Below are positions 1,074 to 61,625 of a stretch of DNA of 64,000 nt, piece after piece (the stretch's first letter is position 1; every line of letters starts with the position of its first letter). This DNA is from Rhodoferax potami. Its GTDB lineage: Bacteria; Pseudomonadota; Gammaproteobacteria; Burkholderiales; Burkholderiaceae_C. The DNA lies in NCBI RefSeq assembly GCF_032193805.1, contig NZ_JAVBIK010000001.1, positions 3,245,001 through 3,309,000 on the forward strand, written 5' to 3'. The notes below the pieces were generated by a model, which was given only the letters and a program-made list of their open reading frames with translations, made no database searches and was not told the origin of the DNA. Made by a program: the position numbers and the translations under genes.

Positions 1074-1375
1074 TTGCTTGCGAGCGCGTACATGTGGAGG
1101 ACCTCTGTGCTTAGGTAAGCACAGAAGTGATCGTGTAGTCGATAGGGGGCGAGCCGTGCAGTTGTGCAACCGGCTGTTAGTGTGAAGTCGCCGTTCACGA
1201 CCGTTGGTGTTGAAAGATAGATTTGGACGGTTATGGACTGGGCCGTGAACGTCTAAATTCAGCCTAGAGCTGTCTTGGTAATCAAGAAGAAAACCACCCC
1301 TAGCGCTCATAGAATATGCGCAAGTAGCTATAAAAAATATAGCAAATTACTCTCGCGAGTCGAACCAAAGTTAGT
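1074..1375. other. Intergenic region, no gene
   Basis: About 300 bases separate the DUF4365 gene from the convergent Mpo1-like gene. It holds a 9-bp-stem hairpin at 1104-1125 (TCTGTGCTT / AAGCACAGA, loop AGGT) without a T-run, and one copy of the dispersed TGCGC...ATAGCA repeat at 1317-1344. No convincing open frame or tRNA is seen. Confidence 0.6.
1317..1344 (+). repeat. Dispersed 28-base repeat, intergenic copy
   Basis: Reads TGCGCAAGTAGCTAT, then AAAAA and an A/T spacer, then ATAGCA. It matches the copies at 15121, 21184, 29580, 53300, 54618 and 61406. GCTAT and ATAGC form a short hairpin stem. This copy lies between two convergent genes. Confidence 0.7.
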
Positions 1376-1702
1376 TCAGAACATAATCTTCCCAGTCCAG
1401 ATATCCGCATACATGCGCCAGTCGCCCATCAGGCTGTAGAGCGGGCGCTTGAAGCTGGCGGGTTTGTTTTTCTCAAAGCCAAAGTGGCCTAGCCACGCAA
1501 AGCCGTAGCCGCACAGTAGCGCGTAAACAAAATATTGGGGCTTGCCCGTGATGAGCAGCATTACTAGGCAGGCCAGGCTCAGCGTGGAGCCCACAAAGTG
1601 CAGGCGGCGGCAAGTGGTGTTGCTGTGCTCGCGCAGGTAAAACGGATAAAACTCGGCAAAGCTCTGAAAACTGCGGGGGTCCACGGATGTATCGGTTGGC
1701 AT
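1376..1702 (-). CDS. Mpo1-like (DUF962) small membrane protein
   Basis: A 108-residue protein of the DUF962 / Mpo1-like family. It has the family features: an N-terminal SFAEFYPFYLREH segment, the HFVGS motif, two hydrophobic segments (about residues 40-75), and GHFGFEKNKPA near residue 75. In yeast Mpo1 is an Fe-dependent dioxygenase of 2-hydroxy fatty acid breakdown. The conserved histidines are present here, but bacterial function is largely unproven. The length is normal for the short bacterial forms. It lies 75 bases downstream of the NTF2-like gene in the same direction, with a hairpin between them (1739-1757, TGCCCGG / CCGGGCA) that may limit read-through. Confidence 0.8.
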   Translation of the reverse strand: MPTDTSVDPRSFQSFAEFYPFYLREHSNTTCRRLHFVGSTLSLACLVMLLITGKPQYFVYALLCGYGFAWLGHFGFEKNKPASFKRPLYSLMGDWRMYADIWTGKIMF

Positions 1703-1738
1703 GGGGGCTCCGGTGTCAATGTGGTCCCCATGTTCCCC

Positions 1739-1757
1739 TGCCCGGGCATGCCGGGCA
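1739..1757 (-). terminator. GC-rich hairpin between two small genes
   Basis: Perfect 7-bp stem TGCCCGG / CCGGGCA with loop GCATG, between the NTF2-like and Mpo1-like genes. There is no T-run, so it may be a weak terminator or an mRNA processing structure. Confidence 0.35.
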
Positions 1758-1777
1758 AGAGGGTGTGCCCTAGGGGT

Positions 1778-2146
1778 TCAGACGCTGCCGACCCGGTAAA
1801 AGTGCTTGGCATAAATCATCCAGCGGCCTTCGTGCTTCATAACGTTCAGGTGGTCTTCCATGATGTTGTTAAAGAGGCGCAGGCGCACTTTCAGCACCGC
1901 CATGGTGGGCGACAAAAAGTCCACCAACAACAATTCTTCCTGGCGCGGGAAGTTGCCCTTCGCTGGTGCTTCTCGCCCTTGCACCATGTCGCGGTAAGCG
2001 GCGAAGGGGCGGGTGACTTGCACGCCGTCTTGTTGGGAGAACAGTACGCAGTCCTTGTGGAAAACGCGCTCAAAAAGCGCCATATCTTGGGTTTGCAGCA
2101 CTTCAAAATAGTCGTTCAGGAATGCGCGGATTTCATCGATGGGCAT
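1778..2146 (-). CDS. NTF2/SnoaL-like fold small protein
   Basis: A 122-residue protein with the cone-shaped NTF2-like (SnoaL/lumazine-binding-like) pattern. An N-terminal helix (IRAFLNDYFEVLQTQD) is followed by the F-H-KDCVLF strand, AAYRDMV, and a curved sheet ending in EGRWMIYAKHFYRV. Members are enzymes or ligand-binding proteins with very varied substrates, so function cannot be assigned. It starts 118 bases from the divergent LysR-type regulator at 2265. LysR regulators often control the adjacent divergent gene, so this is the likeliest target. Confidence 0.65.
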   Translation of the reverse strand: MPIDEIRAFLNDYFEVLQTQDMALFERVFHKDCVLFSQQDGVQVTRPFAAYRDMVQGREAPAKGNFPRQEELLLVDFLSPTMAVLKVRLRLFNNIMEDHLNVMKHEGRWMIYAKHFYRVGSV

Positions 2147-2264
2147 GTAATGCTTTCTGGTTTGTTTGAGGGAAGTAAGCGTCTTGTGGACGTGTTTGCA
2201 GTCTAGAAAAACAGGCCCTACCCATGTGCTAACCTTTTTCGTAGCTACAGCGAAATAAATTCAC

Positions 2265-3182
2265 ATGACAAGTCGCACACCTCCATTGCCCAGCTTGCGC
2301 GCGTTTGCTGCGTTGGTGCGACTGGGCTCGGTCAGTGCGGTGGCAGAAGAGTTGAGCCTGACGCCCGGTGCTGTGTCTCATCAGATCAGGGCACTAGAGA
2401 GTTTTTTGGAGGTTGCGTTGGTGGAGCGGACCGGGCGCCGCCTGGTGCTCACCGAGCAGGGGCGCATTTATGGCTATCAGGTGCGCCAGGCGCTGGACGA
2501 TATTTCAGACGCCACCGAAAACACTCGCCGCCGCAGCCGGCAACGCAAGGGCGAAAAGCTGTTGCGTGTATCGGTGCTGCCATCGTTTGCACATGGTTGG
2601 TTGCTCCCCCGACTGCAAGACTTTTGCCGGCTCTACCCCGACATTCGTGTGGTGATACACGGCTCCATGGAGTATGTGGACTTGAATGCTGGCACGGTGG
2701 ATTGCGCCATCCGCTTTGGACATGGCAATTGGGCTGATGCGCTTATCCAGCCCTTGATGCCAGACTCTTTGTTGCTGGTGGCTTCCCCAGCGCTGCTGGG
2801 CAAACGCGAGTCTCATACGCTGGCGCAACTCATGCAGCTGCCACTGTTGCACTCCATAGAAAACTGGGCGGCTTGGGTGTCTTCCATGCCTGACGCTGAG
2901 CCGCAGTTTCAGCGGCCACCCACCCGCATGGAGTTCACCGATTCAACGCATTTGCTGGAGGCCGCTAGGCAAGGCTTGGGCGTGGCTTTGACCCGCCGCT
3001 CGATTGCCGACAATTTGCTGCAACGTGGCGAGCTGGTGCAGGCGTTTGCCCATGTCTGCCCGCATGCATCTCACTACTACGCGCTTCAGCCCTTGGCGGT
3101 GGAGGCCAGTGAGTCGGTTGCGCAATTCTTGGGCTGGTTGCAGGTAGAGTGCGCCCGCTTTGCTCACAGCCTCAAGACCTGA
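2265..3182 (+). CDS. LysR-family transcriptional regulator (GcvA-like)
   Basis: A 305-residue LysR-type regulator. The winged helix-turn-helix spans about residues 5-65 (SLRAFAALVRLGSVSAVAEEL, then TPGAVSHQIRALE) and the effector-binding domain about 92-295. The RIRALE-type recognition helix and the GTVDCAIRFG region resemble the GcvA/AmpR subgroup. Despite that likeness it sits far from the gcv genes of this window, which carry glycine riboswitches instead, so it should not be called GcvA. It is divergent from the NTF2-like gene. The interval contains an imperfect dyad near 2237-2255 (TTCG...CGAA) that could be part of an operator. Confidence 0.85.
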   Translation: MTSRTPPLPSLRAFAALVRLGSVSAVAEELSLTPGAVSHQIRALESFLEVALVERTGRRLVLTEQGRIYGYQVRQALDDISDATENTRRRSRQRKGEKLLRVSVLPSFAHGWLLPRLQDFCRLYPDIRVVIHGSMEYVDLNAGTVDCAIRFGHGNWADALIQPLMPDSLLLVASPALLGKRESHTLAQLMQLPLLHSIENWAAWVSSMPDAEPQFQRPPTRMEFTDSTHLLEAARQGLGVALTRRSIADNLLQRGELVQAFAHVCPHASHYYALQPLAVEASESVAQFLGWLQVECARFAHSLKT

Positions 3183-3224
3183 GATTTATAAGAAATAGGC
3201 CACTAGCGCAGGTGGGATATGCGC

Positions 3225-3251
3225 AAGGCGCTACGAAATGTGTAGCGCCTT
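3225..3251. terminator. Bidirectional terminator between convergent genes
   Basis: Perfect 10-bp stem AAGGCGCTAC / GTAGCGCCTT with a 7-base loop, between the LysR gene and the convergent hydrolase. Only a short T-rich stretch follows on the plus strand. Confidence 0.6.
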
Positions 3252-3260
3252 ACTTGTTTA

Positions 3261-4085
3261 TCAGGGCTTGCCCAAAAACTGTCGCAAGGCCGACAGGGTT
3301 TCCTCTGGCGCCTCGGTCATCTGGTGGTGGCCTACCGCGATCCGTACGGTCTCTGTGCGCACGCCTGCGGCATTGGCTGCCTGCACCAGCGTCTGCGCGG
3401 CTTTGGGCGATGTCATCTGGTCTTGATCGCCCAGTACAAACAGCACCGGGCATTGCACCTGTGCCATGGCCGCTTCGCCCCCTGAGTAGCTGTCGCAAGC
3501 CTTGAAGCCGCGGTGGAACACGTTGACCGCCGTGTTACTGGCCAGCACCCGCCGGCCCAGTGCCATGCTGGCGCCATACACCCAGGTGCCCGGGCCCAGC
3601 GCTGAGGGCGGTGCAGCCAGCGTGCTGCGCGAAAACACGTTGATCATGGTGAGCGCCTTCATCGGCTCATGGAGTGAAGTCTCCAGCAGGGCAGGGGACA
3701 CTTTCATCGGGTAGGCCGTGCCCACCATCACCAGGTGGGTGGCGCGTGCGCCGAGTCGGCTGGCGGCCTCCAACGCAATCAGCGAGCCCCAGCTGTGGCC
3801 TACCAAAGCGGCTTTTTCGACACCAGCCGCATCCAGCAGGGCCACGATGAAGGCGGCGGCTTGTTCCACGGTTTCCGGCGCCTCGCCGCCGCTGCGGCAG
3901 TGGCCGGGCAGGTCTACCGCCAGCACGTTGTAGCCGTGGTGAGCAAGGTAGCGGCTTTGCAAAATCCAGACACTGTGGTCATTGAGCACACCGTGGATGA
4001 AGACCACCGTGGGCTTTGCAGCATCGAAGGGTTTGCCTCCGGTGTAGCAGTAGTTGTTGGCGCCGTTGACTTGGATTTCCATCAC
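3261..4085 (-). CDS. Alpha/beta-hydrolase
   Basis: A 274-residue alpha/beta-hydrolase. It has the oxyanion-hole motif FIHGVLND (about residue 30), the nucleophile elbow GHSWGS (Ser about 95), a late acidic residue in LGDQDQMTSP (about 218) and the catalytic His in VGHHQMTEAP (about 250). Substrate unknown. Its start overlaps the stop of metY (ATGA at 4082-4085), so the two are translationally coupled in one operon. Hydrolases placed this way may act on an ester such as an acyl-homoserine, but that is conjecture. Confidence 0.85.
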   Translation of the reverse strand: MMEIQVNGANNYCYTGGKPFDAAKPTVVFIHGVLNDHSVWILQSRYLAHHGYNVLAVDLPGHCRSGGEAPETVEQAAAFIVALLDAAGVEKAALVGHSWGSLIALEAASRLGARATHLVMVGTAYPMKVSPALLETSLHEPMKALTMINVFSRSTLAAPPSALGPGTWVYGASMALGRRVLASNTAVNVFHRGFKACDSYSGGEAAMAQVQCPVLFVLGDQDQMTSPKAAQTLVQAANAAGVRTETVRIAVGHHQMTEAPEETLSALRQFLGKP

Positions 4086-5395
4086 GCACCTGCCTTTTCT
4101 GCGGCTTTGAGCGCGCGTTTGAGGTCGTCAATCAAATCGTCCGGGTCTTCCAGCCCGATGGACAGGCGGATGGTGCCCTGCGTGATGCCACCCGCCGCAA
4201 GCGCCTCATCGCCCATGCGGAAGTGGGTGGTGCTGGCCGGGTGGATGACCAAGCTGCGGCAGTCGCCTACATTGGCCAGGTGACTGAACACTTTGAGGGT
4301 TTCAATGAACTTTTTACCCTGCTCGCGGTTGCCCTTGAGGTCGAAGCTGAACACCGAGCCTGCGCCTTTGGGCAGCAGCTTTTGGGCCAGTTGGTGGCTG
4401 GGATGGCTCTCTAGCAGCGGGTGGCCCACGCGCCTCACAAAGGGCTGGCTGGCCAGGAACTGCACCACCTTTTCGGTATTGCTGATGTGGCGGGCCATGC
4501 GCAGGCTCAGGGTCTCTATGCCTTGCAGAATGAGCCAGGCGCTGTGCGGGCTCATGCAAGCGCCGAAGTCGCGCAGGCCTTCGCGCCGGGCGCGCAGCAA
4601 AAAGGCGCCCACGGTGCTTTCTTCGCTGAAGTTCATGTTGTGAAAGCCCTCGTAGGGCGCGGCGAGCTCGGCGAATTTGCCGCTCGCGTCGAACGCGCGC
4701 GCCCAGTCAAAGCTGCCACCGTCCACCACCACGCCGCCAATCACGGTGCCATGCCCGCTCAAGAATTTGGTGGCCGAGTGGTAGACCAGATCCGCGCCTT
4801 GCGCGAAGGGCTGCACCAGCCAGGGTGAGGTGAGGGTGGAGTCCACCAGCAGCGGCACCCCGGCTTCATGCGCGATTTGCGAAATAGTGGGGGTGTCAAG
4901 CACATCCAGGCCGGGGTTGCCCACGGTTTCCCCGAAAAACAGGCGGGTGTTGGGCCGCACCGCAGCGCGCCAGGCATCCACATCGCCGGGCTTCACAAAG
5001 GTGGTTTCAATGCCGAAGCGGGACAAGGTGTAGTGCAGCAGGTTGTGCGAGCCACCATACAAGGCGCTGGACGACACAATGTGCCCGCCCGCACCCATGA
5101 GGGTGGCAATGGCCAAGTGCAGAGCGGCTTGGCCGCTGGCGGTGGTGATGGCGCCTATGCCGCCCTCCAGCGCGGCGACCCGCTGCTCCAGCACCGCGTT
5201 GGTGGGGTTGCTGATGCGGCTATACACATGGCCTGCGCGCTCCAGGTTAAAGAGGGACTGCGCATGTTCGCTGGACTCAAACACAAACGAGGTGCTTAGG
5301 TGGATGGGTACCGCGCGCGCGCCGGTGGTGGGGTCGGGGGCGGCGCCTGCATGGAGTGCAAGGGTGTCAAAGCCCGGGTCAGCGTAACCAGCCAT
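4082..5395 (-). CDS. metY: O-acetylhomoserine aminocarboxypropyltransferase
   Basis: A PLP enzyme of the Cys/Met metabolism family that makes homocysteine from O-acetyl- (or O-succinyl-) homoserine and sulfide. It begins with the typical GFDTLALHAG and contains YSRISNPTNAVLEQRVAALEG, the SATKFLSGHG segment with the PLP-binding lysine (about residue 210), and a C-terminal RLSIGLEDPDDLIDDL. 437 residues is the MetY-type length, longer than MetZ. The start at 5395 is chosen because GGAGAC lies 7 bases upstream and family homology begins at once. An in-frame ATG at 5446 would add 17 residues encoded by a tandem repeat and is less likely. It overlaps the downstream hydrolase. Confidence 0.9.
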   Translation of the reverse strand: MAGYADPGFDTLALHAGAAPDPTTGARAVPIHLSTSFVFESSEHAQSLFNLERAGHVYSRISNPTNAVLEQRVAALEGGIGAITTASGQAALHLAIATLMGAGGHIVSSSALYGGSHNLLHYTLSRFGIETTFVKPGDVDAWRAAVRPNTRLFFGETVGNPGLDVLDTPTISQIAHEAGVPLLVDSTLTSPWLVQPFAQGADLVYHSATKFLSGHGTVIGGVVVDGGSFDWARAFDASGKFAELAAPYEGFHNMNFSEESTVGAFLLRARREGLRDFGACMSPHSAWLILQGIETLSLRMARHISNTEKVVQFLASQPFVRRVGHPLLESHPSHQLAQKLLPKGAGSVFSFDLKGNREQGKKFIETLKVFSHLANVGDCRSLVIHPASTTHFRMGDEALAAGGITQGTIRLSIGLEDPDDLIDDLKRALKAAEKAGA

Positions 5396-5407
5396 AGATG
5401 TCTCCAG

Positions 5408-5439
5408 TGATGAAACCTTGATGAAACCGCAATGAAACC
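5408..5439 (-). repeat. Three tandem 11-bp repeats in the metY leader
   Basis: On the plus strand TGATGAAACC, TGATGAAACC and CAATGAAACC occur at 5408, 5419 and 5430, exactly 11 bases apart. On the metY strand this reads as repeated GGTTTCAT just upstream of the ribosome binding site. The spacing of about one helical turn suggests a protein-binding array, though replication slippage is also possible. Confidence 0.6.
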
Positions 5440-5499
5440 CGCGCATTGTGGGCTATATTTGCTATACAAATTCAACCCCAGTGTCACGAGGAAGTCCCC

Positions 5500-14961: not shown

Positions 14962-15120
14962 GGAGAGGTTCCTAAGTGAAGGGACCTTCATGGTGCGCGC
15001 CGGCTGTGAAGCGCGTTTGCAGCTTTGGCAAACGTGGGTAAAGCTTTGTAATCTGCTTGCAAGCAGTTGTTTATCACACAGTGCTTCTGCATCAAAAGTG
15101 CCTGTATCGCTCATTTCTTG

Positions 15121-15148
15121 TGCGCATCCAGCTATCTATTTGATAGCA
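15121..15148 (+). repeat. Dispersed 28-base repeat, intergenic copy
   Basis: TGCGCATCCAGCTAT, then CTATTTG, then ATAGCA. It lies between the divergent outer-membrane protein gene and the membrane-anchored gene at 15221. It keeps the same length and the same GCTAT/ATAGC hairpin as the other copies. Confidence 0.65.
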
Positions 15149-15220
15149 ATCTGTGTTTGTACAGCGCAGGGGCACTGTCGCGCTACAGTCGTGCTTTGGT
15201 AAAGCTCTCCCCTTGCTCGT

Positions 15221-19182: not shown

Positions 19183-19247
19183 GAGAGCTCTTTCAGGTGT
19201 GTCGCAAACAAGGGAACACGCCTGTGCACACTGTGTGCCAGGCGAGC

Positions 19248-19440
19248 CCCCTCTGTTTGAGACCTGAGAGATTCACCCGCTGCCTGGTGGGCAGCGGGCT
19301 TGCTCCTGCGGTGTGCCGGCGGACAAATGCGCGGCAGCTCTTCAGAGTGCAAACGATCACAGCGGTCCTGGGTGCCTGAGAGTTTCCGGGGTGGTTGCTC
19401 CTTCGGCGCTGCTGCCCGGGTGGGCGGCAGGCTCTCCCGC
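19248..19440 (-). promoter_or_regulatory. Tandem glycine riboswitch for dadA-sdaA
   Basis: Read on the minus strand, aptamer one spans about 19438-19361, with GGGAGAG, GCCGAAGGAGCAA and AACTCTCAGG. Aptamer two spans about 19350-19248, with CACCGCAGGAGCAAG and AATCTCTCAGG. These are the conserved core elements of the glycine riboswitch. Aptamer two has GCAGGAGCAA where GAAGGAGCAA is usual. A hairpin at 19219-19244 (CGCCTG / CAGGCG) follows and may be the expression platform. No convincing promoter is seen between it and gcvP. Confidence 0.85.
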
Positions 19441-19465
19441 TGCGATGCCGGGGCCAGCCCGGCAA

Positions 19466-19527: not shown

Positions 19528-22428
<2,901 letters not shown>

Positions 22429-23022: not shown

Positions 23023-24195
23023 TCAGCCGCGGTAGTAGTTCGTAGGCACAAAGGGCATGGCGCTCACGACCATGGGCACCGGTTTACCGCGGACGATAGC
23101 CACCACCTGGGTGCCAATTTGGGAAAAGCTGGGCTTTACGAAACCCATTGCAATCGGTTTATCAGCAGTGGGTGCAAGTAGGCCGCTGGTGACTTCGCCA
23201 ACCTTGTTACCTTTGTGATCTTGAAGCTCGGTATGGTCGCGAACCGGGATACGCTCCAGAGCAACTAAACCTACGCGCTTTCGGGTGAGAGGCAAATGCT
23301 CCATGTGCAGTTCGGAGCCGCCTATTCCGTTCAACTGCCCAATTACTGTTTCTGCGCCGGGAAAGCCGCCTGCACGTGCGCCACCGGTGCGGCGCACCTT
23401 TTGGATGGCCCAGTTCAGGCTCGCTTCGACCGGTGTGGTGCTGGTGTCAATGTCGTTGCCATACAGGCACAGGCCCGCTTCTAGGCGCAGGGAGTTGCGG
23501 GCGCCCAGCCCGATGGGCTGCACTTCGGGCTGCGCCAGCAGGGCACGGGCCAGCGCTTCGGCGTGATCGTTGTGGACCGAGATCTCAAAACCGTCTTCAC
23601 CGGTGTAGCCGCTGCGCGTGAGGAACACGTCGATCTTTTGGTCGCCGGTGTCGACCGTGAAGTCTCCACCGGTCATGAACACCAGCTTTTCCACGCCGGT
23701 CGCCAAGCGGGCCAGCGCCGTCACCGCTTGGGGGCCTTGCAGGGCCAGCAGAGCATAGTCGGGCAGGGGGGTGACCTGACAGCGGCTGCCAATCTGGGCT
23801 TGGATGTGGGCGATATCCCCCGCCTTGCAGGCACCGTTCACGATAACGAACAGCTCGTCTTGCGCCTTTTTGAAGAACATCAGGTCATCGATGATGGTGC
23901 CCTCTTCGGTGAGCAACAGGCCGTAGCGTTGCTTGCCCACGGGCAGGTCGATCACGTCCACCGGCATCAGGCTCTCAAACGCCGCGCAGGCGTCCAGGCC
24001 GCTCAGGCGCAGCTGGCCCATGTGGGACACGTCAAACAGGCCGGCGGCTTTGCGGGTGTGGTGGTGTTCGGCCATCAGGCCGGCGGGGTACTGAACCGGC
24101 ATGGAGTAACCGGCGAACGGCACCATGCGGGCGCCCAGCTCTAGGTGAAGCGCATTGAGCGGCGTGGTCAACAAGGTCGTGTCAGAAGCGGACAT
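23023..24195 (-). CDS. gcvT: Glycine cleavage system T-protein (aminomethyltransferase)
   Basis: It transfers the one-carbon unit from the H-protein arm to tetrahydrofolate, releasing ammonia. The 390 residues include VPFAGYSMPVQYPAG near the start, FDVSHMGQ, and TRSGYTGEDGFEISV. The open frame runs on to 24600 but that part is the riboswitch, so the start is ATG 24195 (MSASDTT). No strong ribosome binding site is seen, which fits a site occluded or controlled by the riboswitch. First gene of the gcv operon. Confidence 0.97.
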   Translation of the reverse strand: MSASDTTLLTTPLNALHLELGARMVPFAGYSMPVQYPAGLMAEHHHTRKAAGLFDVSHMGQLRLSGLDACAAFESLMPVDVIDLPVGKQRYGLLLTEEGTIIDDLMFFKKAQDELFVIVNGACKAGDIAHIQAQIGSRCQVTPLPDYALLALQGPQAVTALARLATGVEKLVFMTGGDFTVDTGDQKIDVFLTRSGYTGEDGFEISVHNDHAEALARALLAQPEVQPIGLGARNSLRLEAGLCLYGNDIDTSTTPVEASLNWAIQKVRRTGGARAGGFPGAETVIGQLNGIGGSELHMEHLPLTRKRVGLVALERIPVRDHTELQDHKGNKVGEVTSGLLAPTADKPIAMGFVKPSFSQIGTQVVAIVRGKPVPMVVSAMPFVPTNYYRG

Positions 24196-24284
24196 GGCGG
24201 CGATCCAAACAATCCCGGCGCAAGGCGCCGGAGGGGCAATCCAAACCCGGATGCACGCCCATTGGCGCCCATCCGGTGCTGCCC

Positions 24285-24522
24285 CCGCTGTCCGCTTTAC
24301 CTGAGAGATTCGCCGGGCCTGCGTGCACGATGTGATGTGCGCAGACTGCGGGTTGCTCCTTCGGTGGTTTGCAAGCCGCTGTGCGGTGCAAACTCTCTCC
24401 AGTGGGGTGTTGCTGGCTATGCATGCATGGCCAGCACTTGTCAGTCCTTTTGCCTGAGCGTTCAGACCGCTGCAATCAGCCGTCCTGCGCCTTCGGCGGC
24501 CCCATGAAAGGGCTCTCTCCTG
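24285..24522 (-). promoter_or_regulatory. Tandem glycine riboswitch for gcvTHP
   Basis: On the minus strand, aptamer one (about 24520-24441) reads GGAGAGAGC, GCCGAAGGCGCAGG and CTCAGGCAAAAGGACTGA. Aptamer two (about 24402-24288) reads CTGGAGAGAG, CACCGAAGGAGCAACCC and AATCTCTCAGGTAAAG. The linker is unusually long and contains an extra hairpin at 24411-24436 (TGCTGGC / GCCAGCA). The second aptamer ends about 90 bases before the gcvT start. Confidence 0.9.
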
Positions 24523-24532
24523 AACGGGGTGG

Positions 24533-28872: not shown

Positions 28873-28932
28873 GCGGCGTTTGACAAGCGGTTTTGGGTTG
28901 CCGGTTTTGGTGAATTTTTGCTGAGCGGGGTG

Positions 28933-29823
28933 ATGGCCGGCCTGGCGGCGGGCGCCTTGTGGGGTTTGGTCTTTGTAGCGCCAGCTCTGGCGCCCGGGTT
29001 GTTGCCTGTTGATCTCGCAGCGGGCAGGTTTGCGGTTTTCGGGCTGGTTTCGCTCTTGATCGTCGGCGTTGGCTATTTCCGGGGCCGCTCGCGGATGCCA
29101 ACGTGGCGCCAAGCCGGGGCCGCGGCCTTGCTCAGTGCACTCGGCTTCTCCGGCTATTACTTGTTGTTGGTGTACGCCATCCGTGATGCAGGCGTGGCAG
29201 TGCCCACCATGATCATTGGCACGGTTCCGGTGTGGGTGATGTTGCTGGGCAAGCCGGTTGGTTTACGGTGGCGGAGCCTGATTCCGGGTTTGTTGCTGAC
29301 ACTCACTGGCGTGGCTTTGATGATGGCGGCAGACAGCGCAAGCGGCACCGACGCGCGGCCACATGGCTGGGTGTTTTGGCGTGGGGTGTTGTACGGTTTG
29401 CTGGCGATGGCGAGCTGGGTCGTTTTCGCGATCCTCAACTCCGCTTGGTTAAAGCGGCATACCGGGGTCCAGCTCGCTGATTGGACCAGTTGGATGGGGG
29501 TGAGTTCAGGAGTCGCCGCCGGGGCCCTTTGGGGGCTTATGGGTACCCCGCTGGAGTTGCTTCTGGCTCACACGGATACTGCGCGAGCAGCTATGGTTTG
29601 TATAGCAACAGGAGTTGGCTCTGCATGGGTAGCAACCATGCTTTGGAACTTTGCGAGCCGTCGCTTGAGTGCGAGCTTGTGCGGTCAACTCATCGTGTCA
29701 GAAACGCTTTTCGCACTCTTTTACGCATTTCTCGTGCACGGTGACTGGCCGCACCCTTTGCAGTGGTGGGCCAGTGGCATTTTCTTGTTGGGTCTGATGG
29801 CTTCGGTACGTGCGCATCGCTAA
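28933..29823 (+). CDS. EamA/DMT-family transporter
   Basis: A 296-residue inner-membrane protein with ten predicted helices in two repeated halves, typical of EamA drug/metabolite exporters; substrate unknown. Features include GALWGLVFVAPALAPG at the start and PTMIIGTVPVWVMLLG. The start at 28933 has GAGCGGGG just upstream; a TTG at 28918 is possible. The dispersed repeat at 29580-29607 encodes TARAAMVCIATG in the last third, in frame. Downstream of the SDR by 60 bases, probably one unit. Confidence 0.85.
   Translation: MAGLAAGALWGLVFVAPALAPGLLPVDLAAGRFAVFGLVSLLIVGVGYFRGRSRMPTWRQAGAAALLSALGFSGYYLLLVYAIRDAGVAVPTMIIGTVPVWVMLLGKPVGLRWRSLIPGLLLTLTGVALMMAADSASGTDARPHGWVFWRGVLYGLLAMASWVVFAILNSAWLKRHTGVQLADWTSWMGVSSGVAAGALWGLMGTPLELLLAHTDTARAAMVCIATGVGSAWVATMLWNFASRRLSASLCGQLIVSETLFALFYAFLVHGDWPHPLQWWASGIFLLGLMASVRAHR
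29580..29607 (+). repeat. Dispersed 28-base repeat inside EamA gene
   Basis: TGCGCGAGCAGCTAT, then GGTTTGT, then ATAGCA, in the sense orientation and in frame as ARAAMVCIA. Confidence 0.75.
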
Positions 29824-35381: not shown

Positions 35382-35397
35382 GAGCTGCAATCAAGAC

Positions 35398-35420
35398 TGC
35401 TATAAAAATGGGAGCTGCTA
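35398..35420 (-). repeat. Degenerate copy of the dispersed repeat
   Basis: On the minus strand AGCAGCT, then CCCATTTTT, then ATAGCA. It overlaps the left arm of the rnr terminator. Confidence 0.45.
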
Positions 35421-35455
35421 GTCCCTGTTAAATGGGGGCTAGCAGCTTTTTTTAT
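35413..35455. terminator. rnr terminator
   Basis: AGCTGCTAG / CTAGCAGCT extended by CCC/GGG, followed by eight T. It sits between the convergent rnr and nnr genes and overlaps the nnr stop. Confidence 0.85.
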
Positions 35456-36906
35456 AGGTGTTCGATCAGGCGACTGGCAGTCAAGGTTGTTTGCTGTGGC
35501 CATTGGTCTGCCAACAGCCCATGGATATAACAAGATTCTGACGCAGCTTCCCAAGCTGTGCTGCGCTGTGACAAGAGTGTGCCGGTTAGGCCCGCAAGTA
35601 CATCGCCCGTTCCACCGATGGCGAGACGGCCATTGCCTGTGGGGTTGATGCGTGGCTTTCGACCAGGGGCTGCGATCACACTGCCTGACCCTTTCAGTAT
35701 GACCGTGCATTGAAACGTTTCCGCCAATCTCTGGGCCGCGTCGAGCCGGTTGGCTTGGATCTGGGTGGTCTTGCACCCAAGCAAGCGCGCGGCTTCCAGC
35801 GGGTGAGGCGTTATCACCGTGGTGTCGGCGCGGCGCTGGACAAGTGCCTGTGCAAGGTCTGGTCTGATTGCAATCGCATTCAGTGCGTCAGCATCAATGA
35901 CCAGGCGCTCTGCAAGCTCTAGCCAGTGGGGTAAATGGTGGCCGATATCGTGCTCACCCCCGCAGCCGGCAACGACCGTAAGGCCTTGGTGTGGCAGCGT
36001 GTCGGGGCTGCGCAGCATGATATCGGGCGGAATACCCACGCCTTGTAGTCCTTCGCTGTTCAAGAACGCGAGAAAGACCCGGCCGGCACCCGCGTGCAAG
36101 GCGGCGCAAGCCGCCAAAACTGCGGCACCTTGCATGCCCAGTGCCCCGCCCACGATCGCGACATCTCCAAAGCTTCCCTTGTGACTTGCGTGGGGTCTGG
36201 GGAGGGGCTTGGGTGTCGGGTTCAAGGTGCACCGGATGTGTTCAGTCGTGCTCTCCGTCCCTAGTTTGTGCAGCCAGATGTCACCGCATACATCCCGACC
36301 TTGGTGGGTAAACAATCCCGGTTTCAACCCAACAAGGCTCAAAGTGGCAGACGCTTGCACCACCGGTTCGAACGTAGAACCGGTGTCGGCATCCAGGCCG
36401 CTCGGGACGTCAATCGCAAAGGTGGGCTTTGCTGCTTGATTGATGCGTTTGATCCACTCCGCATAAGGTGGCTCAGGGTGGCGTTGAAGTCCGATGCCGA
36501 GGAGGGCGTCTATACAAACATCCCAGCTATCTGGCGCCTCGTGGTGCACTGCGATACCTTCAGCGACCAAACGGGTCCAAGCCCTGGACGCATCAGCAGG
36601 AGCGCTTTTTGGGCTTTTGACAGCACTTACGTATACGGTTTTGCCCCAGCGATGGAGATGGATGGCAGCTTCAGCGCCATCTCCACCGTTATTGCCGTTG
36701 CCACATGCGATCCAAAAAAAATGTGCGTGTGGGGCTTGAGCGAGTACCCAGCGCGCAATCGCTAGTCCGGCTTGCTCCATCAAGCCAGGTTGGCCGATGA
36801 TCGGCTCGGTAGATGCTTCGATTGCTCGTATGTCAGCGCTGGAGAGCAGCGGTATTTCTGTGGTCGGTTTGGCGCTTTGGTGGCTTGCGATCCACTCAAA
36901 ACTCAT
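35452..36906 (-). CDS. nnr: Bifunctional NAD(P)H-hydrate epimerase/dehydratase
   Basis: It repairs damaged NAD(P)H hydrates. 484 residues. The N-terminal YjeF epimerase domain (about 10-215) has GNGNNGGDGAEAAIHLHRWG, and the C-terminal ADP-dependent dehydratase (about 225-480) has GDVAIVGGALGMQGAAVLA and GGTGDVLAGLTG. Start 36906 is chosen for AAGGTG 6 bases upstream; it overlaps the end of the MBL gene, so the two are coupled. Last gene of the DAO-HDOD-MBL-nnr run. Confidence 0.93.
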   Translation of the reverse strand: MSFEWIASHQSAKPTTEIPLLSSADIRAIEASTEPIIGQPGLMEQAGLAIARWVLAQAPHAHFFWIACGNGNNGGDGAEAAIHLHRWGKTVYVSAVKSPKSAPADASRAWTRLVAEGIAVHHEAPDSWDVCIDALLGIGLQRHPEPPYAEWIKRINQAAKPTFAIDVPSGLDADTGSTFEPVVQASATLSLVGLKPGLFTHQGRDVCGDIWLHKLGTESTTEHIRCTLNPTPKPLPRPHASHKGSFGDVAIVGGALGMQGAAVLAACAALHAGAGRVFLAFLNSEGLQGVGIPPDIMLRSPDTLPHQGLTVVAGCGGEHDIGHHLPHWLELAERLVIDADALNAIAIRPDLAQALVQRRADTTVITPHPLEAARLLGCKTTQIQANRLDAAQRLAETFQCTVILKGSGSVIAAPGRKPRINPTGNGRLAIGGTGDVLAGLTGTLLSQRSTAWEAASESCYIHGLLADQWPQQTTLTASRLIEHL

Positions 36907-52616: not shown

Positions 52617-53798
52617 ATGGCCATGGCGAGGAGTACTTCCCCCGGTTCAGAGCCATCCCTTGCGCTCGTTGCGGGCGAGGCTTCCGGCGATCTGCTGGCG
52701 GGCTTGCTGCTTGCCGGCATGCGTGCGCGCTGGCCTGGCGCCACGTCGGGCGGAATCGGCGGCCCGCAGATGGCCAAGCAAGGCTTCGACGCCTGGTGGC
52801 CGCACCACAAGTTGGCGGTACACGGATTCAGCTGGGAGTTGCTGCGGCGCTACCGCGAGATCGTGGGGATTCGTGCAGCCTTGGGTGATCGATTGCTGGC
52901 GGACAAGCCGGATGTATTCATCGGTGTCGATGCCCCCGATTTCAACCTGGCCCTCGAAGCCCGGCTCAAACAGCACGGTGTCAAAACGGTGCATTTCGTT
53001 TGTCCCTCGATCTGGGCCTGGCGGCCGGAGCGGGTGGAAAAGCTCCGCCAGAGCACAGACCATGTGCTGTGCATCTTTCCTTTCGAGCCTGCACTGTTGG
53101 CGTCGCACGGCATAGCGTCTACCTATGTGGGGCACCCGCTGGCGAACGTCATTCCTATGGAGCCTGACAAAGCCGCCGCACGACACGCTTTGGGCTTGCA
53201 GCCGGAAGATGAGGTGGTGGCTATCTTGCCGGGTAGCCGCCAATCCGAGATCCGACACCTCGCCTTGCGATTCTTTAAGGCTGCAGCCCTCATGCTGAAT
53301 GCGCGAGCTGCTATTAAATTTATAGTGCCTGCCGTGCCCGGCTTGTTGCCCGAAATCACCGCTATTGCAGAGCGCAGCGGAATCGGCAGCCGCTTGCAGT
53401 TGTTGACTGGTCAGAGCCACACGGCCTTGGCTGCATGCGACGTCACCTTGATTGCCAGTGGTACCGCTACCCTGGAGGCCGCTCTGTTCAAGCGGCCCAT
53501 GGTGATCGGCTACCACATGTCCTGGTTGTCGTGGCAAATCATGCGGCGCAAACGCCTGCAGCCGTGGGTAGGCCTGCCCAACATTTTGTGCCGGGATTTC
53601 GTGGTGCCAGAGCTCCTGCAAGACGACGCAACCCCGGCTGCATTGGCTCAGGCCACGCTCCAGTGGCTGGACGCGGCGCGCAGCGAGCCTGCCAAAATCG
53701 CGGCCCTTCAATCCACTTTCCGCACGCTGCACACTGATTTGCGGCGTGACACCGCCACTCTTGCGACCGATGCCATCGAAAAAGTCCTCCAAAGCTAA
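52617..53798 (+). CDS. lpxB: Lipid-A-disaccharide synthase
   Basis: Joins UDP-diacylglucosamine and lipid X. 393 residues. [19 protein letters not shown] at the start, [14 protein letters not shown] and [14 protein letters not shown]. Start ATG 52617 is chosen by homology. The dispersed repeat encodes [10 protein letters not shown] at about 230, with no change in the expected length. Confidence 0.96.
53300..53327 (+). repeat. Dispersed 28-base repeat inside lpxB
   Basis: TGCGCGAGCTGCTAT, then TAAATTT, then ATAGTG, in frame as ARAAIKFIV. Confidence 0.75.
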
Positions 53799-54411: not shown

Positions 54412-55182
54412 ATGACCGAACCTGTATTCATCAGCTCCCGTGAGAACGCACTTCTTAAAGAATTGCGCAAACTCAGCACCGACAACACCGCCTATCGCAA
54501 AGCCGGGCGATTCTGGATCGAGGGAGACCACCTGTGCGGAGCCGCCTTGACCCGTGGTGTGCAGCCTGCAGTGTTGGTGGCTTCTGAGTCATTTTGGCCT
54601 CTAGCGCCCGTCGAATATGCGCGAGCAGCTATCAAAATCGTAGTGATTCCGGATGGGTTGTTCCGCGAGATCAGTGGCTTGGAGTCGCCAGCCCGTGTTG
54701 GCTTTGTGGTCGATTTGCCGGCCGCTGCCGCCATAGACCCCGATGCTGCCACCGTGATCCTCGACCGGGTGCAAGACGCGGGGAATGTCGGCTCTATCTT
54801 GCGGAGCGCGGGCGCATTCGGCTTTCGCCAAGTGTTGGCGCTCAAAGGGGCGGCCGCTTTATGGAGCCCCAAAGTTTTGCGCGCTGGCATGGGTGCGCAT
54901 TTCGGACTCCAATTGCACGAAGGCTTGGAACTGGCAGACCTGGATGCCCTGCGTGTGCCGTTGGTGGTGACCAGTTCACACCAAGGGGATTTGGTGCAGC
55001 GCCTTGATTTGCCGCATCCCTGCGCCTGGGCCATGGGGCATGAAGGGCAGGGCGTTTCGGAGGCCCTGATGGCGCGCGCCACCGTCTTTGCCCGCATTGG
55101 CCAGCCGGGGGGCGAGGAGTCTCTCAATGTGGCCGCAGCAGCAGCCATTTGCCTGCATGCCAGCAGTTTGAAGCTTGCCTGA
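54412..55182 (+). CDS. TrmH/SpoU-family RNA 2'-O-methyltransferase
   Basis: A 256-residue SPOUT RNA methyltransferase with a substrate-binding N-domain (about 1-100) and knot domain (about 110-256): DAGNVGSILRSA, PCAWAMGHEGQGVS, and PGGEESLNVAAAAAI. Target nucleotide (rRNA or tRNA) not determinable. The repeat at 54618 lies in the linker and reads ARAAIKIVV. Confidence 0.93.
   Translation: MTEPVFISSRENALLKELRKLSTDNTAYRKAGRFWIEGDHLCGAALTRGVQPAVLVASESFWPLAPVEYARAAIKIVVIPDGLFREISGLESPARVGFVVDLPAAAAIDPDAATVILDRVQDAGNVGSILRSAGAFGFRQVLALKGAAALWSPKVLRAGMGAHFGLQLHEGLELADLDALRVPLVVTSSHQGDLVQRLDLPHPCAWAMGHEGQGVSEALMARATVFARIGQPGGEESLNVAAAAAICLHASSLKLA
54618..54645 (+). repeat. Dispersed 28-base repeat inside RNA methyltransferase gene
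   Basis: TGCGCGAGCAGCTAT, then CAAAATC, then GTAGTG, in frame as ARAAIKIVV. Confidence 0.75.
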
Positions 55183-57258: not shown

Positions 57259-60200
57259 ATGCCAAAACGTACCGACATTAAAAGCATTCTCATCATCGGC
57301 GCCGGCCCCATCATCATCGGGCAGGCCTGTGAGTTCGACTACTCCGGCGTGCAAGCGTGCAAAGCTTTGCGTGAAGAGGGCTACAAAGTCATTCTGATCA
57401 ACAGCAACCCCGCGACGATCATGACCGACCCTGCCACCGCCGATGTGACCTACATCGAGCCCATCACATGGCAAACGGTCGAAAAAATCATCGCCAAGGA
57501 AAAGCCTGACGCGATTCTGCCCACCATGGGTGGCCAGACTGCGCTGAACTGCGCGCTGGACCTGTGGCACCACGGCGTGTTGGACAAGTACAAGGTCGAG
57601 CTGATCGGTGCAACGCCCGAGGCCATCGACAAGGCGGAAGACCGCTTGAAGTTCAAGGACGCCATGACCAAGATCGGTCTGGGCTCCGCGCGCTCCGGTA
57701 TCGCCCACAGCATGGACGAGGCGTGGGCGGTGCAAAAGACGCTGGGCTTCCCCACCGTTATTCGCCCCAGCTTCACTTTGGGCGGTACTGGCGGCGGTAT
57801 CGCCTACAACTCCGAGGAGTTCGAAACCATTTGCAAGCGCGGCTTGGAAGCCTCGCCCACCAATGAGCTGCTGATCGAAGAATCGCTTTTGGGCTGGAAA
57901 GAGTACGAGATGGAAGTGGTGCGCGACAAGGCGGACAACTGCATCATCGTGTGCTCGATCGAAAACTTGGACCCCATGGGCGTGCATACCGGTGATTCCA
58001 TCACTGTGGCGCCTGCACAGACCTTGACCGATAAGGAATACCAGATTCTGCGGAACGCCTCTTTGGCGGTGCTGCGTGAAATCGGTGTGGACACTGGCGG
58101 CTCTAACGTGCAGTTCTCCATCAACCCGGTCGACGGCCGCATGGTGGTGATCGAGATGAACCCGCGCGTGTCTCGCTCTTCCGCTTTGGCTTCCAAAGCC
58201 ACAGGCTTCCCGATTGCCAAGGTCGCAGCCAAGCTGGCCGTGGGCTTCACCCTCGACGAGTTGCGCAACGACATCACCGGTGGTGCTACCCCCGCGTCCT
58301 TCGAGCCCTCCATCGATTACGTGGTCACCAAGATTCCGCGTTTCGCGTTTGAAAAATTCCCTGCAGCCGACAGCCGCCTGACCACCCAAATGAAGTCGGT
58401 GGGCGAGGTGATGGCCATGGGCCGTACTTTCCAAGAGTCCTTCCAGAAAGCCCTGCGCGGCCTGGAAGTGGGCGTGGACGGCATGAACGAAAAAACCCAG
58501 GACCGCGAAGTGCTGGAAAAAGAGCTGGGCGAGCCCGGCCCCGAGCGCATCTGGTACGTGGGTGACGCTTTCGCCCAGGGTATGAGCGTGGACGAGGTGT
58601 TTGCGCTGACCAAGATCGACCCCTGGTTCTTGGTGCAGATCGAACAGATCGTGAAGCTCGAGCTCGAGATCGAGCGCCTGCCTCAGCCCGCTAGCGGCTC
58701 TGCGCTGGACAAGATCGATGCGCCTACGCTGCGCGCATTGAAGCAAAAAGGTTTCTCGGACCGCCGCCTGGCACGCCAGTTCAAGACCACCGACAAGGCC
58801 GTGCGTGAGAAGCGACGTGCTTTGGGTGTGCGCCCGGTCTACAAGCGCGTGGACACTTGCGCCGCCGAATTTGCGACCAACACGGCTTACATGTATTCCA
58901 CCTACGAGGCTGATGGCTCCGAGTGCGAAGCTGCGCCTACCGATAAGAAAAAGATCATGGTGCTGGGCGGTGGCCCCAACCGTATCGGCCAGGGTATTGA
59001 ATTCGACTACTGCTGCGTACACGCCGCCTTGGCCATGCGCGAAGACGGCTACGAGACCATCATGGTCAACTGCAACCCCGAAACCGTGTCCACCGACTAC
59101 GACACCTCTGACCGCCTGTACTTCGAACCCTTGACGCTTGAAGACGTGCTGGAAATCGTGGACAAAGAAAAGCCGGTCGGCGTGATCGTGCAGTACGGTG
59201 GCCAGACGCCCCTGAAGTTGGCGCTCGACCTCGAGGCCAACGGCGTGCCCATCATTGGCACCACGCCTGACATGATTGATGCGGCGGAAGACCGTGAGCG
59301 CTTCCAGAAACTGTTGCACGCCCTGAACCTGCGTCAGCCGCCGAACGCGACCGCCCGCACAGAGCCCGAAGCGCTGGAAAAGGCCGCTGCCTTGGGTTAC
59401 CCCCTCGTAGTGCGCCCCAGCTATGTGTTGGGTGGCCGTGCGATGGAAATCGTGCACGAGCAGCGCGACCTGGAGCGCTACATGCGCGAGGCCGTCAAGG
59501 TCAGCAACGACAGTCCTGTGCTGCTGGACCGCTTCTTGAACGATGCGATCGAGTGCGATGTGGACTGCATCCGCGATAACACCGGTGCGACATTCATTGG
59601 TGGTGTGATGGAGCACATTGAGCAAGCCGGCGTGCACAGCGGTGACTCTGCTTGCTCGCTGCCACCTTTCAGTCTGCATGCGGACACGGTCGCCGAAATC
59701 AAGCGTCAAACCAAGGCCATGGCGGGTGCTTTGAATGTAGTCGGATTGATGAATGTGCAGTTTGCCATCCAAAACGTGGACGGCAAAGACGTGATCTACG
59801 TGCTGGAAGTGAACCCCCGTGCCAGCCGGACCGTGCCGTTTGTTTCCAAGGCGACTGGCATTCAGTTGGCCAAGGTTGCCGCGCGTTGCATGGCAGGCCA
59901 GTCCTTGGCAAGCCAAGGCATCAGCAAGGAAGTGACCCCGCCTTACTTCAGCGTCAAAGAAGCGGTGTTCCCCTTCGTGAAGTTCCCCGGTGTGGACACC
60001 ATCCTCGGACCTGAGATGAAGTCTACGGGTGAAGTCATGGGCGTGGGCAAGACCTTTGGCGAAGCTTTTGTGAAGAGTCAACTCGGCGCAGGCGCCAAGC
60101 TCCCACGCGGCGGCAAGGCGTTTATCTCGGTAAAGCAAGCGGACAAGCCCCGTGCGGTGGAAGTCGCACGCAAGCTGGTCGGCCTGGGCTTTGAAGTGGT

Positions 60201-60513
60201 GGCTACCAAGGGCACTGCCGCGGCTATCAACGCAGCGGGTGTGGCCTGCGGCGTGGTGAACAAGGTCACCGAAGGTCGCCCGCACATTGTGGACACCATC
60301 AAAAACGAAGAGATTTCGATGGTGGTGAACACCGTGGAAGAGCGCCGCAATGCAATTGCAGACTCCCGCCTGATCCGCACCTCCGCATTGCTGGCCCGTG
60401 TTACCACGTACACCACGATTGCCGGTGCAGAAGCAGCCGTCGAAGGCATGAAGTACCTCGACAGCCTGGGTGTGATTTCTGTGCAGGAGATGCACGCAGA
60501 ACTCCTGGCTTGA
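57259..60513 (+). CDS. carB: Carbamoyl-phosphate synthase large subunit
   Basis: Makes carbamoyl phosphate from bicarbonate, ATP and ammonia. 1084 residues: two homologous ATP-grasp halves ([17 protein letters not shown] and [17 protein letters not shown]) and a C-terminal regulatory MGS domain. A long antisense frame over it is not a gene. Confidence 0.99.
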
Positions 60514-60554
60514 AGCGCTTGTTTGAGCGCCGGGCCGCCCCAAGCTAAAACGCG

Positions 60555-60606
60555 GCCCCCATCGTTGGGGGGCAGCGACCCGCTTAGCGGCGGAGCGTGG
60601 GGGGCC
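60555..60606. repeat. GC-rich inverted-repeat block after carB
   Basis: GGCCCCC (60554-60560) can pair with GGGGGC (60568-60573) or with GGGGGCC (60600-60606). I recall similar blocks between genes of Comamonadaceae, but only one copy is here. Confidence 0.4.
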
Positions 60607-60616
60607 AATAACTTGG

Positions 60617-60671
60617 CATAATCGTGCCAACCGCAAAGGACAGTGCCGCGCGCAAGCGCCGCACTGTCCTT
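60617..60671 (+). promoter_or_regulatory. greA promoter and leader hairpin
   Basis: An extended -10 (TGG CATAAT, 60614-60622) is followed by an 11-bp perfect hairpin AAGGACAGTGC / GCACTGTCCTT (60636-60671) at the very start of the transcript. No T-run follows. Confidence 0.45.
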
Positions 60672-60708
60672 GTACTTTGAGGCTCTGTAAAACCTAGCTA
60701 GAGACACC

Positions 60709-61185
60709 ATGGCAACCTATCCCATTACCAAGCGCGGCGCTGAAATGCTCAAAGCCGAACTGCACAAGCTGAAAACCGTAGAGCGTCCTTCGGTGATCCA
60801 AGCCATCGCTGAGGCCCGTGCTCAAGGCGATTTGAGCGAGAACGCCGACTACGACGCTGCCAAAGAGCGCCAGGGCTTTATTGAAGGTCGTATCCAGGAA
60901 GTGGAGGGCAAGCTGTCCGCCGCGCAGGTGATTGACCCCGCATCGATCCAGGCGGATGGTCGTGTCGTTTTCGGTGCGACCGTGAAGTTGGAAGATGAAG
61001 AAAGTGGCCAGCAGGTCAAGTACCAGATCGTCGGTGAAGACGAAGCAGACCTCAAACAAGGCTTGATCAACATCAGCAGCCCTATTGCCCGTGCCTTGAT
61101 CGGCAAAGAGGTGGGTGACACCGCTGTGGTACTCGCCCCTGGTGGTGAGCGTGCCTACGAGGTCGTGGCCGTCGACTACATCTGA
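60709..61185 (+). CDS. greA: Transcription elongation factor GreA
   Basis: Rescues backtracked RNA polymerase. 158 residues: N-terminal coiled coil with [16 protein letters not shown] at its tip, and a C-terminal FKBP-like domain. Confidence 0.98.
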
Positions 61186-61625
61186 TGCGGCAACTCCCTG
61201 TCTGGTTGTCGGCTGCGTGGGCCATGAGCCTGAGCATGTTGGGCTTGCTGGTCGTGCCCATGCTATTTGTGCACTTGCCCACTCCCGCCATGGCCGGGCA
61301 AATGGCAGCCAAGTTGTTCAGCGCCCAGACATGGATCTCCGTGGCCTGTGGTGCGATGTTGCTGATTGCATTTCGGTCAAATCGGCGCCTGGTGCCCGTG
61401 GAGTTTGCTCAGGCTGCTACGCTTTTTGTAGTGGGCGGCGCTCTCTTGGCACTCATGGTCGAACTGGCCATTGCCCCGCGCATCGTCGCGCGGGAGAACC
61501 TTGCCCTGTGGCACCGCTTGGGTACCGGCCTGTTTGTGGTCCAGTGGATTTGCGCCTTGGTAGTCTTGCGCCAAATGGTCTCTGCACTGTCGAGCAGCAG
61601 CGATACACCGGACGCGCAGACATAA
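61185..61625 (+). CDS. DUF4149 membrane protein
   Basis: A 146-residue protein with four hydrophobic segments and the DUF4149 pattern (VVPMLFVHLPTPAMAGQMAAK). Function unknown. Its ATG overlaps the greA stop. The repeat at 61406 encodes AQAATLFVVG. Confidence 0.83.
   Translation: MRQLPVWLSAAWAMSLSMLGLLVVPMLFVHLPTPAMAGQMAAKLFSAQTWISVACGAMLLIAFRSNRRLVPVEFAQAATLFVVGGALLALMVELAIAPRIVARENLALWHRLGTGLFVVQWICALVVLRQMVSALSSSSDTPDAQT
61406..61433 (+). repeat. Divergent copy of the dispersed repeat in DUF4149 gene
   Basis: TGCTCAGGCTGCTAC, then GCTTTTT, then GTAGTG, in the same reading frame as the others (AQAATLFVV). Confidence 0.55.

Follow-up and report, generated by a model that had tools for sequence, protein, structure and literature searches.

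The 64,000-nucleotide stretch of the Rhodoferax potami genome studied here (positions 3,245,001 to 3,309,000 of contig NZ_JAVBIK010000001.1; hereafter, the window) carries nine copies of a motif of about 65 bp that recurs throughout the same genome, inside genes and between them. What is such a motif for? We propose that it may be a DNA-uptake label read by the competence machinery, and we give this reading slightly less than even odds (a probability of roughly 0.47). It is proposed because the placement, conservation, excess information, dialect and patchy occurrence of the motif match the profile of uptake sequences given in the available parts of published accounts (PMC2397512, PMC3630211). 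The motif arose in place in three host proteins, is constrained at the level of DNA, forms a dialect in one lineage, is scarce on second contigs and is patchily distributed among relatives. From these observations, we infer a protein reader and a role for that protein in uptake.

Under this proposal, the motif would serve as an address of about 65 bp, written throughout the genome and read in double-stranded DNA, arising in place by substitution and sometimes through the import of whole recombined segments. A reader protein would recognize both its base sequence and the shape of its A-tracts and would thereby keep the motif. Most likely this reader would belong to a type IV pilus or competence DNA-uptake machinery that prefers motif-bearing DNA. 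Incoming DNA with the motif would replace resident alleles, so that copies would accumulate and undergo repair in chromosomal DNA of long residence. The model is that of the uptake sequences in Neisseriaceae and Pasteurellaceae, to our knowledge the only two families from which such sequences have been described.

Extent and Sequence of the Motif

Unless a whole genome is named, site counts refer to 864 kb of the window's own genome (G000; 4.0 Mb in three contigs), comprising the window and 40 stretches of 20 kb. A position weight matrix (PWM), seeded with 30 genomic copies and iterated over this sample, retained 133 sites at a cut-off of 18 bits, one of which (L047 +9279, 19 bits) probably reflects the palindromy of a site 43 bp away. 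The class is sharply separated: 139 sites reach 8 bits, and the 137 matches of at least 10 bits compare with 1 in a single order-1 Markov resample. If evenly spread, the 133 copies extrapolate to about 617 per genome. A pattern search of the whole genome returned 299 matches (143 plus, 156 minus) and only 3 for a reversed-pattern control. Chromosomal overrepresentation in hundreds of copies on both strands is a property of the DNA uptake sequences (DUS) of Neisseriaceae and the uptake signal sequences (USS) of Pasteurellaceae.

A sequence-only reading of the window had described a dispersed 28-base repeat in seven or eight copies. These copies are present where it placed them. At up to three mismatches, the 28-bp pattern has six matches in the window compared to a shuffle mean of 0.02, and the remaining copies score lower. 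The repeat is real, but it is the best-preserved half of the longer motif, whose nine sites of at least 18 bits include one that had been missed (plus strand, 3180). The copy at 35398, described as degenerate, is actually a 46-bit site on the minus strand.

Information spans about -38 to +30 around the start of the 28-base repeat, and the consensus from -36 to +28 reads TTwnrnRyCAWWTngGSCkCTRGCSChCRYngaaynTGCGCrAGYAGCTAYnaWWWtnRTAGCRa. Over 126 sites, the left part consists of TT at -36/-35, an A-tract at -27 to -24 and GGCC-k-CTAGC(G/C)C at -22 to -11; the center of C(A/G)T at -9 to -7 and AA at -4/-3; and the right part of TGCGC-n-AGCAGCTAY at 0 to 14, a second A-tract at 16 to 19 and RTAGCA at 22 to 27. 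The motif holds 53 bits, where about 13.7 bits would be enough for locating the sites. Rather than forming a short DUS-type core of about 9-12 bp, this information is spread over about 65 bp. USS combine a core with A/T tracts; the motif resembles them in this layout but differs in sequence, length and bacterial family. At 122 sites, the A-tract steps were counted as AA 83, TT 26, AT 9 and TA 2 at -26/-25, and as AA 65, TT 27, AT 25 and TA 2 at 17/18. We read this avoidance of TpA as the probable mark of a reader that senses groove shape.

Watson-Crick covariation was not found in the imperfect stem (best register, 8.02 pairs observed and 7.93 expected) or in the right-hand dyad. As covariation in the stem is absent, the motif appears to be read as double-stranded DNA and not as a hairpin; on the missing covariation, together with similar use in sense and antisense, we reject an RNA or hairpin function. 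Membership in a known Rfam family was also rejected, since none of the six gathering-level matches in the window lies at any motif copy. Outside the motif itself, no sequence is common to 30 loci.

Origin in Place within Host Genes

How does a motif of this length come to lie inside conserved genes? In LpxB, all 110 aligned rows are gap-free across the motif segment, whether they carry the motif at 25 bits or more (39), an intermediate form (6) or none (65). Of the 108 rows that span the site in the SpoU-family methyltransferase, 102 have no gap, and six, all motif-bearing (L079, L083, L104, L113, L131 and L143), have a 6-residue insert within the left part of the motif. It is identical in five of the six rows, although L079 and L104 are probably one genome; the insert rows fall in separate clades of the LpxB tree, which suggests that the allele may have been transferred across species. 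In GcvP, 24 of 30 loci cover the site: the 12 motif-bearing rows are all gap-free, and 11 of the 12 other rows differ by 1, 2 or 5 residues. Some rows in these alignments and in the LpxB tree probably represent one genome under two identifiers (for example, G009 and L103). The suggestion that the sequence had been exchanged into place and not inserted is borne out for these three proteins, none of which shows an element-sized gain in length.

A wider comparison is available for those genic sites, 7 of 63, that have a homolog lacking the motif, three of them in LpxB, the methyltransferase and DUF4149. Five are gap-free, one has a one-column gap and one an 11-column gap, and these two gaps count against a blanket claim of origin in place. 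Amino acid identity at the seven sites is 40% within the motif segments versus 69% beside them; hence, the copies favor permissive stretches of protein. As with uptake sequences, then, the motif arises in place and is kept up in permissive stretches while being itself conserved (seven sites, two with gaps). The sequence-only reading named as its own refutation that the encoded peptides be ancestral in all homologs. The protein segments are ancestral, but the DNA pattern was added, and beyond the protein segments that refutation fails.

Rickettsia palindromic elements are a repeat family found in many unrelated genes in compatible frames, and their insertion lengthens proteins. The kinship with them raised by the sequence-only reading does not hold, because in the three proteins tested the motif replaces codons in place; the alignments of LpxB, the methyltransferase and GcvP exclude insertion of the Rickettsia type. 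Could the motif nevertheless be a short mobile or once-mobile repeat of the REP/RAYT, miniature inverted-repeat transposable element (MITE) or Rickettsia-palindrome kind, spread by transposition? Its copies are imperfect palindromes, 36 of 133 are intergenic and 34 lie at gene ends, Y1_Tnp matches occur in 30 of 37 genomes, and there is the 11-column gap at one of the seven genic sites. This explanation is already largely refuted, and we regard it as very improbable: besides the lack of an element-sized length gain, there are no near-identical copies, nothing is shared beyond the motif in 30 loci, stem covariation is missing, and Y1_Tnp is found in the genus (22 of 23) with and without the motif. 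REP/RAYT elements are extragenic paired palindromes, unlike a motif with 63 of 133 copies inside genes. The nearest published repeat that we found is the beta-proteobacterial repeat element (BRE), dispersed in Bordetella and Comamonadaceae with some copies in genes; as described in the available text, it differs in being 75-91 bp long, 69% GC in Bordetella, often tandem in variable number and limited to at most 29 copies per genome, and it is set apart from the motif by this description and not by sequence (PMC3110155). For GTAG-tagged REPs, a term search of the published account (PMC3733652) gave no match.

Conservation, Turnover and Copying

Between the window's genome and that of a sister species (G001), alignable DNA contains 27 sites, and every one is shared. 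Another four are located in segments that differ as wholes, and the comparison of the window found two sites in G001 alone. The copy at 3180 sits in a 1.5-kb stretch that G001 lacks, and the intergenic gap holding the copy at 15081 measures about 100 bp in the window versus 3 bp in G001. In the two cases examined base by base (15081 and the gcvT stretch 23115-23354), it is a larger segment that differs. At the gcvT stretch, G001 and two further comparison genomes (G007 and G034) have a motif copy, and the window has a divergent, motif-less replacement.

Within shared sites, the high-information columns change slowly: 5.4% versus 8.8% in the flanks for G001 (27 pairs), and 7.3% versus 24.5% for G007 and G034 (9 pairs, all in the window). 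The low-information columns change faster than the flanks, at 13.7% versus 8.8% and 35% versus 24.5%, respectively. The constraint extends to third codon positions, where high-information columns differ at 8 of 126 (6.3%) compared to 205 of 1346 (15.2%) in the flanks for G001 (p=0.005), and at 15 of 81 (18.5%) compared to 428 of 892 (48%) for G007 and G034 (p=1.6e-7).

Near-identical pairs of copies do not exceed the column-shuffled expectation (minimum Hamming distance 14 of 66 columns; shuffles 13-19). Pairs with 22 or fewer differences are in excess (256 versus 82), which we attribute to uneven site quality. The idea of a conversion-driven repeat, or of copying between sites, is not supported by this comparison. 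Slow columns without near-identical copies are the result of selection or drive on the DNA sequence, not of copying. A related explanation is that the motif is a recombination or conversion hot-spot signal spreading by biased conversion, with no role in uptake. It would account for the replaced segments that accompany polymorphic sites between the sister genomes (15081; gcvT 23115-23354), for the 6-residue methyltransferase insert, identical in five of six rows, in distant clades, and for low-information columns that outpace the flanks (13.7% versus 8.8%). We nonetheless consider it improbable, given that no trace of conversion between sites was found and that, with 27 of 27 sites in alignable DNA shared, there is no fresh gain or loss there.

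Placement in Genes and Along the Chromosome

Using gene calls from a purpose-made hexamer gene finder, 63 of the 133 sites fall wholly within genes, 34 extend across a gene end and the remaining 36 lie between genes; the density is 0.08/kb inside genes versus 0.76/kb in gaps or at gene edges. Genic copies are commoner than in codon-matched controls: 62 matches were counted in the genes, compared to 3-10 when synonymous codons were shuffled (ten shuffles) and 0 when the order of codons was (three shuffles). Sense and antisense copies are alike in number (29 and 34), so neither a peptide nor an RNA is the selected product.

The four sense copies in genes of the window do all lie in the same frame, as had been noticed, and the antisense copy in gcvP is confirmed. 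Over the 63 genic sites, the three frames are occupied 25/3/1 times in sense and 27/4/3 times in antisense. The favored frames give alanine-rich codons (GCG CGA GCA GCT in sense, GCT GCT CGC GCA in antisense) and the sense frame with an in-frame TAG is almost empty (1 of 29). In our reading, residue tolerance accounts for the frame preference and no special cause is required.

Convergent gaps are preferred over divergent ones (p=0.03), with 9 sites in convergent regions versus 5.1 expected. Is the motif then a transcription terminator or another regulatory element acting at the RNA level? Some copies are near-palindromic beside T runs, as at 35392, a copy that may double as a terminator, and a spaced motif of Acidovorax ebreus is intergenic in 94% of its copies, many of them flanked by convergent genes (PMC5217627, Table 7). 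Such a function is the least probable of the explanations that we weighed, since genes contain 63 of 133 copies, in either orientation, and covariation is absent, and termination may be a secondary use of the kind reported for DUS and USS (PMC13020248).

Along the chromosome, strand relative to GC skew is balanced at 68:65, and sites occur in stretches near both GC-skew switches. No long empty zone appears in the sampled stretches, of which 2 of 40 (at 1.35 and 1.65 Mb) contain no site. The strand balance and the sites near both switches led us to reject a replication-polarized (KOPS-like) or terminus-excluded signal. Spacing is slightly over-even (3.1 sites per 20 kb, variance 2.0, lower-tail p=0.04).

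Second contigs are nearly free of the motif. At the chromosomal density of G000, 36.9 sites would be expected in 240 kb of its contig 3, which has 3, and 21.6 in 140 kb of contig 2 of G001, which has 2. We take these large second contigs to be plasmid-like, and for them the core enrichment and rarity in acquired DNA expected of an uptake sequence are found. All three copies on contig 3 (L245 15081, L245 17949 and L246 1898) share one strand and a span of about 7 kb, as would be seen if a fragment of the chromosome had been transferred to this contig. Contig 2 of G000 (L241) is exactly 10,000 bases long with 25% G+C, compared to ~59% G+C for the chromosome, and is a foreign element or an assembly artifact.

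Distribution among Relatives and a Lineage-Specific Dialect

By LpxB, the window's genome has Curvibacter, Rhodoferax and further members of Comamonadaceae as its nearest named relatives, and we accordingly place it in that family. Within the genus of the window, 17 of 37 genomes have at least 30 pattern matches and the rest at most 13. Across Comamonadaceae, this threshold of 30 is reached by 34 of 150 genomes, representing 30 of 126 genera; in 24 genomes from the order's other families, the maximum is 6. Genomes of one genus can differ sharply, as with 156 matches in G072 versus 2 in G190, and 184 in G089 versus 6 in G202. On the LpxB tree of 110 rows, rooted at its midpoint, at least 12 changes of the trait are needed, six of them forced by well-supported branches. 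We read the motif as probably an old trait that was repeatedly lost, the balance of losses and gains depending on the midpoint root.

Among named loci, labeled from about 4-21 kb each, some titled Polaromonas, Acidovorax, Rhodoferax and Curvibacter bear the motif, and some Rhodoferax loci do not. All nine loci grouped as Acidovorax have a site of at least 30 bits. No motif was found in 8 Hydrogenophaga and 4 Limnohabitans loci (14-21 kb each), and of the 80 named loci scanned with a soft PWM, 42 gave no site; unrelated dialects are possible there. Faded versions of the methyltransferase site persist in motif-less relatives (17 bits in L141, 15 in L154 and 13 in L147). Group consensuses are weighted towards orthologous sites.

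One genome, G089, has its own dialect: it contains 342 matches, at up to two mismatches, to a form with TGCCTGAGC replacing TGCGCGAGC, and none to the reversed control. The whole center is altered (TAGCCGGCGTATTTATTGCCTGAGCAGCTAT) in the 13 loci read, and the 39 kb that contain them hold nine more such sites, unselected by the pattern. That so many copies, in the hundreds, changed in concert points toward a trans-acting reader, and a lineage-specific dialect of this kind is a further property of uptake sequences.

Which reader, however? The main rival to the uptake proposal is a binding site for a chromosome-organizing or nucleoid-associated complex (in anchoring, segregation or division) that is needed every few kb and on the chromosome only. 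Near absence from second contigs, slightly over-even spacing, an A-tract shape code, site positions kept across genera and a genome-wide dialect that requires a trans-acting reader would all suit such a site. Known systems of chromosome sites (KOPS, matS, SlmA and Noc sites) are unlike the motif in polarity or terminus pattern. The motif has no strand polarity (68 versus 65), lies near both skew switches, is missing from many close relatives, which would be odd for a core chromosome function, and holds far more information (53 bits) than the 13.7 bits needed for location. On balance, we judge a chromosome-organizing site to be unlikely, though less so than any of the other alternatives.

The Motif as a Possible DNA-Uptake Label

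The results agree with the earlier suggestion that the repeat could be a motif at which DNA is bound, recombined or taken up. The motif is like DUS in having many chromosomal copies, some of them genic, in its rarity in acquired DNA, and in its conservation in permissive stretches, dialects and association with terminators (PMC2397512, PMC3630211). Unlike DUS, which are about 10-12 bp long, it consists of several blocks and A-tracts over about 65 bp and is sparser in G000.

Selective transformation has been reported in the family. Verminephrobacter eiseniae takes up DNA selectively via type IV pili, with no signal sequence named in the available text; the competing effect of salmon DNA was about a tenfold loss at most, at up to 1500-fold excess, and Acidovorax temperans is transformed solely by DNA of its own species (PMC4212676). 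In the titles and opening lines of abstracts of the open-access papers listed by our searches, no uptake sequence is named for Comamonadaceae, and selective uptake appears only in that report.

Fragments of the motif may also have been seen before. A survey lists as unexplained potential novel motifs the spaced pairs ATAGCT(N)22CAAAAG in Polaromonas naphthalenivorans (125 copies) and GCTTAT(N)5AAGCG in Acidovorax ebreus (114 copies), and of the genomes that it analyzed, the richest in motif pairs, with 140, was Rhodoferax ferrireducens T118 (PMC5217627). These come from the same bacterial family, and their blocks are in register with the motif in a by-eye alignment; they seem to belong to it. 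Unlike the motif, the pairs are short fragments and mostly intergenic, and the available text of the survey gives no full motif, dialects, evolution within genes or function (PMC5217627).

Several points weigh against an uptake label. At ~65 bp and 53 bits, the motif is far longer than any uptake sequence known to us, and in G000 it is sparser than uptake sequences, at about 1 per 6.5 kb. Homology by itself could account for the species barriers in Acidovorax. Within the genus of the window, ComEC went undetected in 4 of 17 genomes that bear the motif but was detected in 19 of 20 that lack it; the bearers without it are G026 (99% complete) and G012, G020 and G030 (76-88% complete). G026 has no match to the ComEC family, yet DprA, GspH and PilB were found in it. 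DprA and GspH-type pilins occur in 22 of 22 genomes and PilB in 19 of 19, whether the motif is present or not. A search reaching up to 1.5 kb from pilB found no site in any of 19 genomes (13 motif-bearing), some of these loci being limited by contig ends; the competition test in V. eiseniae used a pilBC construct (PMC4212676), and V. eiseniae is not among the 19 pilB loci. Finally, no transformation was detected in A. delafieldii (PMC4212676), and a locus titled A. delafieldii (L145) bears the motif.

Features of the Window

Motif copies and their host genes are collected in Table 1. Two tandem pairs of glycine riboswitches (four RF00504 matches) lie on the minus strand at 19243-19449 and 24278-24532, one upstream of gcvT and the other downstream of gcvP.

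Table 1. Motif copies (74-bp frames) and host genes in the window; host families were assigned by Pfam.
Feature	Position	Strand	Remarks
Motif copy, intergenic	1277..1350	+	PWM 69 bits; common to G001
Motif copy between convergent genes, missed by the sequence-only reading	3180..3253	+	PWM 59 bits
Motif copy between divergent genes	15081..15154	+	PWM 59 bits
Motif copy, antisense within gcvP	21144..21217	+	PWM 62 bits
Motif copy, sense, within EamA-family gene	29540..29613	+	PWM 39 bits; common to G001
Motif copy overlapping gene 3' end	35392..35465	-	PWM 46 bits; 26 bits in G001
Motif copy, sense, within lpxB	53260..53333	+	PWM 49 bits
Motif copy, sense, within SpoU-family RNA methyltransferase gene	54578..54651	+	PWM 72 bits
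Motif copy, sense, within DUF4149 gene	61366..61439	+	PWM 42 bits; common to G001
gcvP (glycine dehydrogenase), host of 21144 copy	19528..22428	-	Pfam GDC-P, GcvP2_C
EamA-family transporter gene, host of 29540 copy	28918..29823	+	Pfam
lpxB, host of 53260 copy	52617..53798	+	Pfam LpxB
SpoU-family methyltransferase gene, host of 54578 copy	54412..55182	+	Pfam
DUF4149 gene, host of 61366 copy	61224..61625	+	Pfam

Implications

We tentatively suggest that the motif may be a self-recognition code for DNA exchange, the third at the level of a family: a dialect-forming address of ~65 bp that a protein assembly would read by way of several contacts to bases and of A-tract shape, that mutation and allele replacement would have written into genes under molecular drive, and that would be the sequence behind selective transformation in Acidovorax and Verminephrobacter. 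No other genome-wide address known to us would match it in length and information content. If it is an uptake label, then self-marked DNA exchange arose again, in Comamonadaceae, and the reported selective transformation that lacks a named signal would be explained. It would also provide a natural case of a signal at the DNA level shaping the choice of codons and residues in core genes. Should it be a chromosome-organizing site instead, a 53-bit motif that is kept at some 600 places and occurs in only some close relatives would still represent a novel type of mark on chromosomes.

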